From Candidatus Brocadia sp. (GTDB lineage: Bacteria; Planctomycetota; Brocadiia; Brocadiales; Brocadiaceae), in NCBI GenBank assembly GCA_011525665.1, contig WYAU01000015.1, forward strand, positions 1 through 54,240: 54,240 nucleotides of DNA. The letters run 5' to 3'. A program made the translations under genes and the position numbers. Shown piece after piece: positions 22,297 through 30,862 of the stretch. A model generated the notes under the pieces. The model searched no databases and had not been told where the DNA came from. It saw only the letters and a program-made list of their open reading frames with translations. Each line of letters begins with the position of its first letter. The first letter of the stretch is position 1.

Positions 22297-23307
22297 TTAC
22301 GTGTGTTCTTTTATGGTGTCGAGTAATTGGTCAATGATATCCAGGGGCGTTTTCCCTTCTGCCTCCGAATTGAAATTCGTGATAATGCGATGTTGCAGTA
22401 TAGGTTTGGCAATTGCCCGTACGTCATTGCAGGTGGCTGCATATCTGCCGTCGAGCAATGCCCGCGCCTTACCTCCGAGGATGAGGTACTGAGAAGCGCG
22501 GGGTCCCGCCCCCCAGCTGATCCATTTTTTAATAAAATCGGGCGCACCGGGGTCTATTGGCCGTGACGCGCGAACCAATCGTATAGCATATTCAATCACA
22601 TAGTCGGCGACAGGTACCCTTGTAACCATGTCCTGAAGGGTCGTGATTTCTGCGGGACTGAAGACTTTGGCCACTGTCGGTTTATAGGGAGACGTTGTAG
22701 TTCGTACAATTTCGATTTCCTCTTCCCTGGAGGGATACTGTACGTTGATCTGGAACATGAATCGGTCCAATTGCGCCTCCGGTAAAGGATATGTGCCTTC
22801 CTGCTCAATGGGATTTTGCGTGGCAAATACGATGAAAGGCAGTTCAAGGGCATACGTGGTGCCGCTCGCGGTAACCTTGTATTCCTGCATGGATTGAAGC
22901 AACGCCGCTTGTGTTTTGGGGGGGGTACGGTTGATCTCGTCGGCGAGGAGTATATTGGAGAAGATCGGACCCTTGATAAATTTAAAAAATCTTTTTCCCG
23001 AGGCATGGTCCTGTTCCAGGATATCGGTACCGGTAATATCGGCAGGCATGAGATCGGGTGTGAATTGGATGCGGTTGAATTTCAGATTCAAAACATCCGC
23101 GAGGGTACTTACCAGTAATGTCTTGGCAAGTCCCGGTACCCCAACAAAGAGACAGTGCCCTTTGCAAAAGAGGGCAACAAGGAGATTGTCGATTACCTCT
23201 TCCTGTCCTATTATAACCTTTGCAATTTCCCTTTTTATCTTGTGTCGTCCGTCAACAATCTTTTCGATGGCCTGGCGGTCTATCTTTTCAATTTCAGCAG
23301 TGGTCAT
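22297..23307 (-). CDS. MoxR-family AAA+ ATPase
   Basis: 336-aa MoxR ATPase. Walker A reads GVPGLAKT, Walker B ILLADEINRTPPKTQAALLQSMQE, sensor 1 is in FATQNPIEQEGTYPLPEAQLDRF and the C-terminal lid follows. It probably acts as a chaperone for VWA partner proteins encoded downstream. The start at 23307 is chosen because upstream codons (to 23421) run through a structured RNA element and do not look like protein. No Shine-Dalgarno is visible before this ATG, since the upstream 20 nt are U-rich. Confidence 0.93.
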   Translation of the reverse strand: MTTAEIEKIDRQAIEKIVDGRHKIKREIAKVIIGQEEVIDNLLVALFCKGHCLFVGVPGLAKTLLVSTLADVLNLKFNRIQFTPDLMPADITGTDILEQDHASGKRFFKFIKGPIFSNILLADEINRTPPKTQAALLQSMQEYKVTASGTTYALELPFIVFATQNPIEQEGTYPLPEAQLDRFMFQINVQYPSREEEIEIVRTTTSPYKPTVAKVFSPAEITTLQDMVTRVPVADYVIEYAIRLVRASRPIDPGAPDFIKKWISWGAGPRASQYLILGGKARALLDGRYAATCNDVRAIAKPILQHRIITNFNSEAEGKTPLDIIDQLLDTIKEHT

Positions 23308-23320
23308 AAAAATAGCACAT

Positions 23321-23408
23321 AAAAAAGAGCGTCGGTGTCGAAGCTGCTCAGATAAGCCCAAAACTGAGCCGGTTACTACCAAGGCTTTTCCCCGGCACCG
23401 ACGCTTTA
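23321..23408 (-). ncRNA. Compact structured RNA, leader or small RNA upstream of moxR
   Basis: On the minus strand, 23405-23396 pairs with 23337-23328 (AGCGTCGGTG with CACCGACGCT, 10 bp). Inside is a GCTCAG/CTGAGC hairpin with a 12-base loop. That loop's GGGCTT can pair with AAGCC in the 5' half, a possible pseudoknot. A T6 run (23326-23321) follows the closing stem, as in an intrinsic terminator. A weak promoter (TTCACA, 17 bp, TAAAAG) would start transcription at the stem's first base. The moxR ATG lies 13 nt after the T-run. I do not recognise it as a known riboswitch, SRP RNA or 6S RNA. Confidence 0.55.
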
Positions 23409-23674
23409 ATACTTTTACCAAAAATCAGACTATTTGTGAACGAAAATTTAAAAAAGTTTTTCCTGTTTGACTAAATTCTCTGTCATCATTCCCCTCCGCC
23501 GTGGTGGGTTTGAACTATTGGTAAATTGGCAAAAGATACGAGGGGTTGTTATTTATTATGGCTGAAATAAGCCGGCAGGATGTTTTTGTATATTATGATC
23601 AAAAATGAATTTTTAAATCCTTTATTGCAAATAGATTAGGGGGGGAAAAATGGAAGAAAGGCAGTAACGAATAA

Positions 23675-24006: not shown

Positions 24007-25566
24007 ATGAAATGTGTTGCTAACAAAATAATGGCAAATATATGGGTGGTGTTTATTGCTTTAGGGACATTACTGTTGGAATTGGGGATTGCTGAGGCAG
24101 GAGACCCGAATGGTTCGGCAACTTATACAGACAGTATCGACGGATTGAAATACGCCGTTAATTTTACCTGGACATTGGTGGGCGCTTTTCTGGTGTTCAG
24201 TATGCAATCGGGATTTGCCTTTTTAGGGGGATTTTTAAGGCAGAAGAACATGCTGGGTTACATGGCACATTGTTTTATCGATTCCACGTTTGGTGCAGTG
24301 GTTTTCTATCTCTTTGGATTTGCTTTAATGTTTGGGGGATCTAAACTTGTGCCGGGACTTGAGTACGGTAATTCTTTTATCGGATGGGATGGGTTTTTCC
24401 TTGCCGGAAGGTCCTATGATGTCCAAACCATCATGTTCTGGCTCTTCCAGATGGTGTTTGCCACAAAGACGGTTTCAATTATCGCCGGCGCTGTGGCGGA
24501 AAGGATGAAATTTGTGCCATACATAATTTATAGTTTTCTGATGTGTGGCTTAATCTATCCAATATATGGGCATTGGGTGTGGGGCGGTGGGTGGCTCAGC
24601 ACGCTTCCGATCGGCGCGGGAGTAAAAGACTTTGCGGGATGCGCCTGCGTCCATACCATTGGCGGAATTATGGCGTTTATGGGGGCATGGGTATTGGGTC
24701 CCAGAAAAGGAAAGTATAATCCGGACGGCACCCCCAATGCCATTCCGGGTCATAACCTTGTTTACGTGGTGATAGGGACTTTGGTGCTCGCCTTTGGCTG
24801 GTTCGGTTTTAATGCCGGAAGCACGCTTGCGGCAACTGATTTGCGTATGTCAGTCGTAGCAACGAATACCTTTATTGCGGCTGCTACCGGCGCCTCTATA
24901 ATGCTCTTTGTGCAATGGGCGCTGACCGGTTATATTGACATACCTTTCATTTGCAACGGAGCGCTTGCCGGCTTGGTAGCCATTACCGCGCCGTGCGCCT
25001 ATGTTGCACCCTGGGCTGCTGCCGTTATCGGGCTTCTTTCCGGATTAATTATGAGGGGCGCTTTATGGCTGGTTGAGGTCGTGTTCAAAGTTGATGATCC
25101 CCTTGGCGCTGTAGCCGTCCATGCAGCAAACGGTATATGGGGCATGCTGGCTATCGGTATTTTTGCCGATGGTACGTATCAGGGAGTAACCGGCCTAATA
25201 ATGGGATCAGGATGGCAATTGCTTGCCCAATTTATCGGAACGATCGTTGCCATGGCGTGGGCGTTCGCATGGGGCGCTGCAGTATTCTTTTCTTTAAAAT
25301 ATACCCTGGGTTTAAGGGTTTCGGAAGTAACTGAACATGAAGGCGTTGACGTGCATATTCACGGCTCTCCCTGCTATCCGGTTGAAGAGGAGTTCCTTAC
25401 GCCTCTGACAGGTGAAGCTGTAATTGATCTGGAGCAGGAAAAAGAACAGCTGTCTCTGCTTGAGGAGGCCTTAAGCAAGGACAGGGAGAGGGAGAAGATT
25501 TATTCAGAAAAACTTGGCCGATGGGTGTATGCAAGGATAAAGACGGAAAAAAATAAGATACGATGA
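24007..25566 (+). CDS. amtB: Ammonium transporter (Amt family), long C-terminus
   Basis: 519-aa ammonium channel, a trimeric membrane protein conducting ammonium or ammonia. An N-terminal signal peptide ending IAEAG is followed by about 11 TM helices. Conserved features: pore twin histidines in DFAGCACVHTIGG and DDPLGAVAVHAANG, and the phenylalanine gate/vestibule segments FWLFQMVFA and FGWFGFNAGS. After the usual end (near HGSPCYP) there is an extra 61-residue charged tail with heptad-like Leu/Glu/Lys, absent from the neighbouring Amt proteins. It is followed by glnK, the standard PII partner that plugs the channel. A strong Shine-Dalgarno (GAGGAGGGGG) precedes the ATG. Confidence 0.94.
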   Translation: MKCVANKIMANIWVVFIALGTLLLELGIAEAGDPNGSATYTDSIDGLKYAVNFTWTLVGAFLVFSMQSGFAFLGGFLRQKNMLGYMAHCFIDSTFGAVVFYLFGFALMFGGSKLVPGLEYGNSFIGWDGFFLAGRSYDVQTIMFWLFQMVFATKTVSIIAGAVAERMKFVPYIIYSFLMCGLIYPIYGHWVWGGGWLSTLPIGAGVKDFAGCACVHTIGGIMAFMGAWVLGPRKGKYNPDGTPNAIPGHNLVYVVIGTLVLAFGWFGFNAGSTLAATDLRMSVVATNTFIAAATGASIMLFVQWALTGYIDIPFICNGALAGLVAITAPCAYVAPWAAAVIGLLSGLIMRGALWLVEVVFKVDDPLGAVAVHAANGIWGMLAIGIFADGTYQGVTGLIMGSGWQLLAQFIGTIVAMAWAFAWGAAVFFSLKYTLGLRVSEVTEHEGVDVHIHGSPCYPVEEEFLTPLTGEAVIDLEQEKEQLSLLEEALSKDREREKIYSEKLGRWVYARIKTEKNKIR

Positions 25567-25616
25567 TAGACCAGAGTGCATGTGTGATATTAGGTAATTA
25601 GAGAGTATTTCAATAG

Positions 25617-25970
<354 letters not shown>

Positions 25971-25999
25971 ACTCCCCGTTATACGTTCGGCGTTGTATT

Positions 26000-26040
26000 G
26001 CCGGTATTGTCCCGCTTTTGTCGGGACAATACCGGCAGTT
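26000..26040 (+). terminator. Rho-independent terminator after amtB1-glnK1
   Basis: A perfect 15-bp inverted repeat pairs 26000-26014 with 26022-26036 around a 7-base loop, with a short TTTT run at 26039-26042. It lies 29 bp after the glnK1 stop and only 21 bp before the most likely amtB2 start. It could terminate the first operon or act as an attenuator for amtB2. Confidence 0.75.
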
Positions 26041-26057
26041 TTCTGGTAAATAACAAA

Positions 26058-27422
26058 TTGAAAAGACATATATTCATATTCGCTCTGGCGTGTGGTCTGC
26101 TGGTTTTTTACGTCACCGGTGTGTCCGCCGGCGACCCCAGCGGCGCACATACTTATTCCGAAAGTATGCAGGGGTTGAAATTTTCGGTGAACTTCGCGTG
26201 GACATTGCTGAGCGCTTTTTTGGTTTTTAACATGCAGGCGGGGTTTACATTCCTCGGCGCAGGTTTTATTCAAAAGAAGAATACGCTCAATTACCTGGCC
26301 ATGAGTTTCATAGATTTTTGTGTCGGTGCGCTCGTTTTTTGGCTCTTTGGTTTTGGCCTTATGTTTGGCGGTTCTCGACTGGCCCCCGGCCTCCCGGATG
26401 GAAATCAATTCATTGGGTACAGTGGATTCCTCTTGCTGGGGGATTCCTACGATGTCTCCACATCGGTGCTGTGGATATTCCAGATCATGTTCGCCGCAAC
26501 CGCCTGTACAATCGTTACGGGTGCTACCGCAGAGAGATTGAAATTTCATGCACACGTAATCTACAGCATCTTTTTGTGTGGCGTACTGTATCCCGTATTT
26601 GGACACTGGATGTGGGGCAAGGGGTGGCTTGAACTGCTCCCTTTTGGCGTGGGGGCAAGGGATTTCGCCGGTTCAGGGGTAGTGCATGGAATGGGAGGTC
26701 TGATAGCATTTGTCGCCGCATGGATAGTGGGGCCAAGATATGGAAAATACAATCCGGACGGAAGTCCTAATGTGATTCACGGCCACAATTTGCTCTATAT
26801 CGTAATAGGGACGCTTACCCTGATCTTTGGGTGGTTTGGCTTTAATGCCGGAAGTACGCTTGCAGTTACGGAGCTTCGTGTATCGATAATTGCGGTAAAT
26901 ACCTTTCTCTCAGCAGCGGCAGGCTCTATCACCCTCCTGTATTTGTCGTTTTACAAGACGAAGAAATCGGATGTGATTATGATCTGTAACGGTGCGCTGG
27001 CTGGTTGTGTCGCAATTACGGCATCAGGTGCATATGTGCCCCATTGGGCAGCAATTCTCATCGGAGTTATTGCAAGTTTAATTACAAGGGTTTCTTTGTA
27101 TACCATTGAAACCCGGTTGAAGATTGACGACCCGGTGGGCGCCATCTCGGTTCATGGAATGAATGGTCTTTGGGGCTTGCTTTCAGTGGGTATCTTTTCC
27201 GATGGGACGTATGGTGGTGTAAAAGGTCTGATTACAGGCTCCGGGTGGCAATTATTAGCCCAGTTTATTGCATGTATAACCCTGGTAGCATGGTGTTTTT
27301 TGATAGGTTTTCTGTTTTTCTCTGTCATGAAACGAACGCTGGGGCTCAGGGTGCCCGTTACTATTGAACGTTCCGGTATAGATGTTTACGAGCACGGAAC
27401 AAGCTGTTATCCGGGGATTTGA
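26058..27422 (+). CDS. amtB: Ammonium transporter (Amt family), second copy
   Basis: Second ammonium channel (about 454 aa), of the same subtype as amtB1. Shared features are GDPSGAHTYSESMQGLKF after the signal peptide, twin histidines in DFAGSGVVHGMGG and DDPVGAISVHGMNG, and FGWFGFNAGS. It lacks the long charged tail and ends HGTSCYPGI. The start is uncertain. An in-frame ATG at 25998 would place the terminator stem inside the coding region, so the TTG at 26058 (LKRHIFIFALACG signal peptide) is preferred; no clear Shine-Dalgarno supports either. It has no PII gene directly behind it. Confidence 0.9.
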   Translation: MKRHIFIFALACGLLVFYVTGVSAGDPSGAHTYSESMQGLKFSVNFAWTLLSAFLVFNMQAGFTFLGAGFIQKKNTLNYLAMSFIDFCVGALVFWLFGFGLMFGGSRLAPGLPDGNQFIGYSGFLLLGDSYDVSTSVLWIFQIMFAATACTIVTGATAERLKFHAHVIYSIFLCGVLYPVFGHWMWGKGWLELLPFGVGARDFAGSGVVHGMGGLIAFVAAWIVGPRYGKYNPDGSPNVIHGHNLLYIVIGTLTLIFGWFGFNAGSTLAVTELRVSIIAVNTFLSAAAGSITLLYLSFYKTKKSDVIMICNGALAGCVAITASGAYVPHWAAILIGVIASLITRVSLYTIETRLKIDDPVGAISVHGMNGLWGLLSVGIFSDGTYGGVKGLITGSGWQLLAQFIACITLVAWCFLIGFLFFSVMKRTLGLRVPVTIERSGIDVYEHGTSCYPGI

Positions 27423-27990
27423 TTCAAAAATCATTAAAAATATTGCAAAATTACACTTTAAAATGTATACTTCTCCGAAAATTCTCAATACTCCTTTCTA
27501 AAACACGGAAGAGATTCTTTTGATTTAAATGTAGGAGGAATAAACACGTTTTTTGTTCATACCAGGTTTCTTTCCAAAAATTTCTTTTTTCATTGTAGTA
27601 TCTGTAAGATGTTGATTGCGATTATTATTCAACACCCGTTTTCTATAAAACGGCATTTTCCAGAGATTTCAACCACTCCTTATCCTTCCCCTCGCCAGTG
27701 GCGGCGAATTTAAAAGGGGATATTTTTTGTGCTGCAGCATTAAAAACTCGTATGGTTTAAATCGACCACAGACAAAACTAGCAAATATTGTGCAAAATAA
27801 ATCATATATTTAAAAAATAATCCATAATTGCAATAGATACAAGCTATTATAATGTTGTAATTATTTATAGTGTTTTTTTGGTATCAAAAATGCCCACTAT
27901 GATTGTTCGTAATTGAATTGATACATTTCTCCTGTTGGTCCGGTTGAATATCAAAGCGATAGTGGCAATATCACTGGTGGATTTTTAAGT
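27423..27990. other. 568-bp AT-rich gap between amtB2 and the haem protein
   Basis: No gene is seen. The segment 27675-27725 (CCTTCCCCTCGCC...GGCGAATTTAAAAGGGGA) resembles a common intergenic repeat and can form a hairpin. A TATAAT at 27848-27853 lacks a -35 at suitable distance. A sigma54-like site occurs at 27878-27895. The last 40 bp contain GGTGG before the ATG at 27991. Confidence 0.5.
27878..27895 (+). promoter_or_regulatory. Possible sigma54 promoter of the haem-protein gene
   Basis: TTGGTATC followed by ATGCCC keeps the GG-N10-GC spacing of RpoN promoters (GG 27880-27881, GC 27892-27893). The -24 part TGGTAT fits well and the -12 part has ATGC instead of TTGC. It lies 96 bp before the ATG at 27991. 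Confidence 0.35.
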
Positions 27991-28941
27991 ATGTTTAACC
28001 GTAACTTTTATTTTAATCTGGCGATAACACTGACGGCATTTCTTACGGGACTGCTCCATTTTTCTGTATTTTCCCAGAACTATGTAATCAACGGGATCTC
28101 GGAAAAAAAGGAGCAGGAAATTACCCTCAAAGATAGTATCATACGGAGGGAATCCTTAATTATCAAAGACAAGAGGGTGTATGTCCGATTAGTGCTCGAT
28201 GAAGGCGCCAGGAATATTACCAATCATAAGAGATACAAAGAAACGCTGTATTTGCTTCCCAAGGAAGTTATTTATGACGAAACAAGCAGACGGATTTTTT
28301 ATTATACGGATAATACCGAGATTGAAATAGGAAGGGAGAAAAGCTTTTTTGGTTTCATGCCCTATATTGCTTTGGCGGATGGGGTAACAATCATAAGTTC
28401 CCCTACCGATGCCAAGTTGTTAGTTTCGGGAGGGAAAGACGAGCAGGGAATTTTAAAATCCGTACTGCATTCCGAAGAAAGCATGGAAGCAACCCTGAAG
28501 AAGAAATGCGGCCAATGTCACATACTGGAATATATATTTTCTCATAAAAACTGGGTTGAAGAAGACATACTGCATGCATTTAACAGGATACAGATGGAGA
28601 AGGAAGAAAGATTCACAGAGGATGAACAGAAAATAATCGACTTATTTAAAAAATATCAAAAGGGCGAAATTGACAGAGGAAAACTTGCCGAGTTTAAATC
28701 GTTGAAAGAAATTTCCAAAAAAGATGTTGCCGACTTTACAGAAAACGTATATACGAACAACTGCGTACCCTGCCATAATCCATCAAAGATATCAGACATT
28801 TCGATCTTATACTCAAGACGGAGATGCAAGAGTATCGTTGACCGGATGAAAGAAAAAGAGCCTTCTCTCTTTCTGCAAAAAGACATGGATAGTCTGGCTA
28901 GTTACTTGTGGGAAATAAAGCTCAGGCCGTACGAAAACTAA
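27991..28941 (+). CDS. Dihaem-motif c-type cytochrome-like protein within the amt cluster
   Basis: 316-aa exported protein with an N-terminal signal/anchor (hydrophobic residues 8-27). Two covalent haem motifs are present, CGQCH (173-177) and CVPCH (258-262). Each is followed by a methionine that could be the distal ligand (near 201 and about 35 residues after the second). The first 165 residues form a beta-rich domain without cysteine motifs that I do not recognise. Its setting between amtB2 and amtB3 on the same strand suggests a link to ammonium metabolism or sensing. No homolog with known function comes to mind. Confidence 0.8.
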   Translation: MFNRNFYFNLAITLTAFLTGLLHFSVFSQNYVINGISEKKEQEITLKDSIIRRESLIIKDKRVYVRLVLDEGARNITNHKRYKETLYLLPKEVIYDETSRRIFYYTDNTEIEIGREKSFFGFMPYIALADGVTIISSPTDAKLLVSGGKDEQGILKSVLHSEESMEATLKKKCGQCHILEYIFSHKNWVEEDILHAFNRIQMEKEERFTEDEQKIIDLFKKYQKGEIDRGKLAEFKSLKEISKKDVADFTENVYTNNCVPCHNPSKISDISILYSRRRCKSIVDRMKEKEPSLFLQKDMDSLASYLWEIKLRPYEN

Positions 28942-29094
28942 GTTTCTTATAAGGAAGGGGGTGGTAGGATGAAATAATTCAGATATGTAAAACAGTTGTT
29001 TCATCCGGTGGCAGTTTGTTTTATAGGCAGTACTTCAGTATGCGGTTTTTGTGGTAAAGAGGAGTTAATTTATAACTTTAAAAAGGAGAGGTTT

Positions 29095-30862
<1,768 letters not shown>

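Follow-up and report, generated by a model that had tools for sequence, protein, structure and literature searches.

The window analysed here, a stretch of 54,240 nucleotides from Candidatus Brocadia sp. (contig WYAU01000015.1), carries on its minus strand a structured RNA followed by moxR, the first gene downstream of the RNA, and then by genes encoding DUF58 and BatA/VWA proteins (Table 1). Divergent from this RNA-moxR unit, a cluster on the plus strand (24007-30435) encodes three ammonium transporters and, at 25617-25970, a PII-like protein. The minus strand also presents a c-di-GMP-I riboswitch at the extreme end of the contig (13-133; RF01051, 44 bits), and the gene under its control would fall past the contig end.

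Table 1. Features of the RNA locus, with positions numbered along the window.
Feature	Position	Strand	Basis
Putative -35 element TTCACA	23435..23440	-	conserved in 30 RNA-bearing Brocadiaceae loci
Putative -10-like element TAAAAG (extended TG; spacing of 17 nt to the -35 element)	23412..23417	-	predicted start at ~23406
Whole RNA, 86 model positions including the terminator U-tract	23321..23406	-	covariance model R1 match, 104.4 bits, E 8.7e-25
Closing stem P1, 5' strand, 16 positions, one C-A mismatch in this genome	23390..23405	-	covariation
Proposed pseudoknot, 5' strand AAGCC	23383..23387	-	pairing in 99.5% of cells
Hairpin P2 with loop UUUUGGGCUUAU	23345..23370	-	stem 23369-23364 / 23351-23346
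Proposed pseudoknot, 3' strand GGCUU, within the hairpin loop	23354..23358	-	pairing in 99.5% of cells
Closing stem P1, 3' strand, also the terminator stem	23328..23343	-	covariation; U-tract directly after
U6 tract, end of the intrinsic terminator	23321..23326	-	direct sequence
moxR, AAA_3 ATPase, downstream neighbour outside the RNA	22297..23307	-	Pfam AAA_3, 1.8e-60

The main elements of the fold outlined in a preliminary description of this DNA were all recovered on the minus strand. The 10-bp closing stem is present as part of P1 (23405-23396 with 23337-23328), which continues past the C-A mismatch as CGGGG:CUUCG (23394-23390 with 23343-23339), and the internal 6-bp hairpin corresponds to the stem of P2, where an additional flanking position (23370/23345) is paired in other genomes. 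The P2 loop spans 12 nt, and the RNA offers an unpaired UUUU and a 12-nt linker of variable sequence. The run of six T residues does lie, as had been reported, 13 nt before the moxR ATG at 23307. The predicted minimum free energy of the RNA is -39.7 kcal/mol, compared with -31.2 +/- 3.2 kcal/mol in dinucleotide shuffles (z -2.67).

A BLASTN search with a 131-nt stretch against 59 genomes, comprising that of the window and its relatives, returned matches with 82-94% identity in other genera of the same family and, for the core, with 78-84% identity in another family of the order. A total of 44 homologues were extracted and 39 of them aligned, after which a covariance model was built. This model detected exactly one copy in each of 47 of the 62 genomes of the order, with E values ranging from 1e-15 to 1e-26. 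These copies are distributed among three families: the Brocadiaceae, which include Brocadia, Kuenenia, Jettenia and Loosdrechtia (family f1; 30 of 33 genomes), Scalindua and its relatives (f4; 15 of 17) and Anammoxibacter (f5; both genomes). The model did not detect the RNA in the two other families of the order, f2 (0/9 genomes) and f3 (0/1), and weak matches in f2 were discarded as chance-like sequences devoid of the core.

Beyond the order, none of 13 further genomes from the class contained a match, and a sample of 392 genomes from the phylum yielded no credible match. The two weak matches in this sample were rejected as homologues, one (G271) for lying antisense within an ORF and the other (G246; 26 bits) for being without the loop half of the core and the greater part of P2. 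A scan of 84,980 species with the core pattern identified 36 stretches, all of which (36/36) belong to anammox genera or to records assigned to the Planctomycetota, and three matches from a pattern scan of viral contigs were dismissed as chance occurrences without the structure. On the evidence of these searches, the RNA is deeply conserved and found only in anammox bacteria. Its presence does not track anammox capacity, since hydrazine synthase is also encoded in the RNA-less f2. The RNA is hence tied to three families rather than to the anammox trait and, given that an anammox family lacks it, anammox as such can proceed without it.

Comparative sequence data provided extensive evidence for the two stems. 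In a model-fitted alignment of the 47 copies, pairing is maintained in 93.6% of cells, and 14 of the 23 pairs show changes on both sides (11 of 16 in P1 and three of seven in P2, where 94.8% of cells are paired). Cells with both sides changed number 93, against 31 +/- 6.5 in shuffles, and the covariation score is 0.305 against 0.195. As a control, sliding the partners by one to three columns reduced paired cells to 37-44%. A MAFFT alignment, which is not fitted to the structure, is in agreement (66 double-changed cells versus 20, in 13 pairs), and parsimony on a tree derived from the RNA itself recovers 17 compensatory events. The preliminary description had named an absence of compensatory changes among related genomes as grounds for abandoning the structure; such changes are plainly there. 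Together with the identity observed across genera and the single strong match per genome, the compensatory changes in both stems confirm the structured RNA at 23406-23321 as genuine, far beyond chance.

The nearly fixed letters of the RNA are GGGGAAA(A)GCCUUG, AGUUUUGGG and AGUUUUGGGCUUAUCUG, as well as the tip of P1 (GGGG:CUUC), and its least conserved part is the exposed linker. The loop pairing put forward in the preliminary description is feasible, AAGCC being able to pair with GGCUU, but the aligned homologues contain no double-sided compensatory change for it. Two of them (L030 and L042) carry a one-sided change that preserves a G-U pair, and another (L036) breaks the outermost pair. The predicted pseudoknot is thus consistent with the data and remains unproven, because the letters of the core are nearly invariant. 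RNAalifold suggested an alternative hairpin for the GGGG strand (CGGGG-AAAAG-CCUUG), which was rejected in favour of P1, because its stability is lower in 10 of 11 sequences and because the 14-69 pair covaries with P1.

The preliminary description had also proposed a weak promoter placing the start of the transcript at the stem, and a TTCACA-N17-TAAAAG arrangement with this property is indeed found. The match in this sequence alone is weak (9/12, equalled by 13% of shuffles), and the case for a promoter consequently rests on conservation within the Brocadiaceae, where the promoter-like block AAATTTTCRTTCACAAA-N-TTTTTGGTAAAA is maintained and the predicted start falls at the foot of P1. An AT-rich stretch immediately 5' of the -35 element (AAATTTTCG, 23449-23441) is conserved too, and the exact 17-mer AAATTTTCRTTCACAAA has a single occurrence in the genome. 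Just upstream of the RNA in three genomes of the Scalindua family, strong promoter-like TTGACA-N17-TACAAT/TAGAAT/TAAAAT motifs precede the copies followed by truA (L035) or cobS (L038 and L041), and these are equalled by none of 200 shuffles. In the Anammoxibacter family (L043 and L044) and in several Scalindua genomes the promoter is not convincing, and none was seen in L044. At the other end, P1 and the U-tract provide the RNA with its own terminator in this genome and in most homologues, and three copies (L030, L038 and L044) lack the U-tract and retain an intact core. These features suggest that transcription runs from the foot of P1 to the U-tract.

The gene downstream of the RNA is co-directional with it in all 46 readable loci, and its identity depends on the family. 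It is moxR in each of the 30 Brocadiaceae loci, whereas among the copies in f4 and f5 it is truA in 14 and cobS, or cobS-cobU, in two, with one f4 copy located at a contig end. The upstream gene varies widely between loci. The gap between the RNA and moxR ranges from a dozen to about 200-260 nt and holds unrelated sequence in some genomes; in the Brocadiaceae, the U-tract often lies less than 25 nt from the moxR ATG. No MoxR orthologue was found in the f4 genomes tested, which keep the RNA and in which the best MoxR reaches at most 51% identity. The f5 genome G039 does encode a moxR orthologue (72%), unlinked to the RNA, and orthologues (72-78%) are also present in f2 and f3, where the RNA is absent. 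The association with moxR is therefore not general across the families that bear the RNA.

Three Brocadiaceae genomes of a single genus, g10 (G027, G029 and G031), have neither the RNA nor the moxR orthologue, with best MoxR matches of 44-49% and one fragment at 54%; the two may have been lost jointly or may both have been missed in the assembly. In f2, moxR (L147-L150 and L178-L182) is preceded by a different conserved promoter (CTTGCAA...TTTGATA), an unconserved leader and a strong Shine-Dalgarno sequence. The possibility that this leader is a diverged copy of the RNA was discarded on the basis of its own promoter and Shine-Dalgarno sequence and its lack of a conserved core. In the window, the absence of a Shine-Dalgarno sequence before moxR had been correctly pointed out, yet it says little, since under a loose criterion only 13 of the 40 long ORFs of the window have one. 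In Scalindua (L031-L037, L039, L040, L042, L084 and L085), a conserved CACCACTTGTRGRAAYTTCTC directly precedes the GTG start of truA, with an inverted repeat 5' of it in several genomes, and this stretch may constitute a separate truA leader.

Taken together, the data incline us, by a modest margin over doubt, towards a self-contained structured RNA that would act in trans through an invariant, predicted pseudoknotted binding site. Transcription would start at the foot of P1 and stop in the U-tract that follows the 3' strand of this stem, releasing an RNA of some 86-90 nt. In this molecule, the 16-position rod formed by P1 would hold a compact core in which the P2 loop pairs with the strand leaving P1 (AAGCC/GGCUU), and the core would serve as the binding site for a fixed partner, either a protein or a small molecule. 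Such a partner is suggested by the fact that compensatory change preserves the shape of P1 and P2 while the letters of the core barely vary. In the Brocadiaceae, moxR is probably expressed by read-through of the terminator, given that it sits directly behind it, and this arrangement would represent local wiring rather than a conserved function. Control of a single downstream gene is unlikely to be the selected function, because the same core stands before three unrelated genes, persists whether or not a U-tract follows, and occurs in genomes that have no moxR orthologue. Against a self-contained RNA stand the strict co-direction with the downstream gene, which in the Brocadiaceae is always moxR and often less than 25 nt away in a leader-like arrangement, and the three g10 genomes that have neither the RNA nor the moxR orthologue. 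The unconvincing promoters in f5 and several Scalindua genomes, the lack of double-sided changes in the predicted pseudoknot and the absence of the RNA from f2 also count against it.

The co-direction, the tight moxR spacing and the double absence in g10, together with the riboswitch-like invariance of the core, keep a cis-acting sensor among the candidates. As an orphan riboswitch or protein-sensing attenuator, the RNA would set read-through of P1 into moxR, truA or cobS, and in approximately two thirds of the Brocadiaceae loci there is no room for another promoter before moxR. We regard this explanation as rather unlikely, on account of the three unrelated downstream genes served by one copy per genome, the spacing of up to about 200-260 nt, partly filled with unrelated sequence, and the copies that preserve the core without a U-tract. 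Moreover, no antiterminator could precede P1, whose 5' strand begins at the predicted start of the transcript, and the only alternative structure that might couple the core to expression, the short CGGGG/CCUUG hairpin, does not undo P1 and spares most of the stem. The preliminary description had offered two readings: a riboswitch-like leader coupled to a terminator, and a small RNA that carries a terminator itself. The second is supported by the single copy per genome, the predicted promoter at the 5' end, the terminator at the 3' end and the unrelated downstream genes; the first is weakened by the lack of any upstream element able to compete with the terminator stem and by the conservation of the core without a U-tract or moxR.

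A free-standing unit of putative promoter and terminator would also suit an antisense small RNA acting in trans, which would base-pair with mRNAs through the conserved loop or through the linker, and both the single-stranded UUUU and the variable 12-nt linker would be available for this purpose. This is an improbable role for the RNA, given that the fixed letters take part in structure, mostly in the predicted pseudoknot and the tip of the stem, whereas the exposed linker is its least conserved part. The locus might otherwise be merely the terminator or promoter region of a neighbouring gene, with an incidental fold, as its terminator-like stem and U-tract would allow. This is very hard to sustain and, as far as sequence allows, is refuted by the covariance matches and by the conservation and covariation of P2 and the invariance of the core, neither of which a terminator needs, as well as by the homologues without a U-tract. 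Finally, the moxR frame stays open across the RNA back to a TTG at 23421 in this genome, and is likewise open in L007, L022 and L027, but an N-terminal extension of MoxR is a negligible prospect, refuted by stops in every frame among 42 homologues (15 to 39 of them, depending on the frame), by the indels and spacers that separate the RNA from moxR and by substitutions that track base pairing rather than codons.

Returning to the self-contained RNA, its wider interest derives from the organisms that carry it. Anammox bacteria convert ammonium into nitrogen gas, and a large part of the nitrogen lost to the atmosphere is due to them. Hardly any letter of the core differs between Brocadia, Kuenenia, Jettenia, Scalindua and Anammoxibacter, and such conservation of a single-copy element points to very strong selection, with the consequence that the RNA should show up in existing transcriptomes. 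It also provides a concrete handle on anammox biology, through pull-down and probing. The chances are about even that the RNA represents an undescribed class, private to three anammox families, in which a pseudoknotted receptor core serves a dedicated partner in trans, a partner possibly tied to the unusual physiology of the anammox cell. The results further advise against letting the closest gene decide the name of an RNA, since here the neighbour changes between families and the RNA does not.

The claim that the RNA belongs to no known family holds against Rfam 15. The cmscan search suggested in the preliminary description returned no family at gathering score for the RNA locus, and a permissive scan produced only chance-level matches, the best of them at 15.8 bits. 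In the open-access papers searched, no description of this RNA or of any lineage-specific anammox RNA was found. Nor was one found in a Kuenenia transcriptome paper (PMC7438415), in which structural-RNA reads had been removed. Within the scope of Rfam 15 and open-access text, it is thus an undescribed family of bacterial structured RNA.

Among known systems, 6S RNA resembles it in being small and housekeeping-like and in combining a long closing stem with an open internal region, but the anammox RNA is half as long and shows no sequence match. An identity with 6S RNA (RF00013) was rejected, the sole match in the genome being on another contig. This match (genome G000, contig C97, 66923-67103) corresponds to a probable 6S RNA, its 44.4 bits falling just under the Rfam cut-off of 46.4 bits. 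The bacterial small SRP RNA is comparable in its length of about 90-100 nt, its rod-like form and its single copy, but the anammox RNA lacks the SRP apical loop motif, and an identity with SRP RNA (RF00169) was likewise rejected, with a clear match (65 bits) on a further contig (C64). With intrinsic terminators it shares a G+C-rich stem followed by a U-tract; unlike them, it has within this stem a conserved core of 46 nt that includes a covarying hairpin. Orphan riboswitch candidates, compared by general description, differ from it in several respects. It has no Rfam match, a single copy per genome and downstream genes that are unrelated between families, so that moxR, truA and cobS-cobU do not make it the leader of genes of one pathway or response; its closing stem is itself the terminator, with no antiterminator, and its core is kept without the U-tract. 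It nonetheless shares with these candidates a position near the predicted 5' end of the transcript and a short, conserved and putatively pseudoknotted core within a variable closing stem, in the manner of compact pseudoknotted aptamers such as those of the preQ1, SAM-II and fluoride riboswitches.
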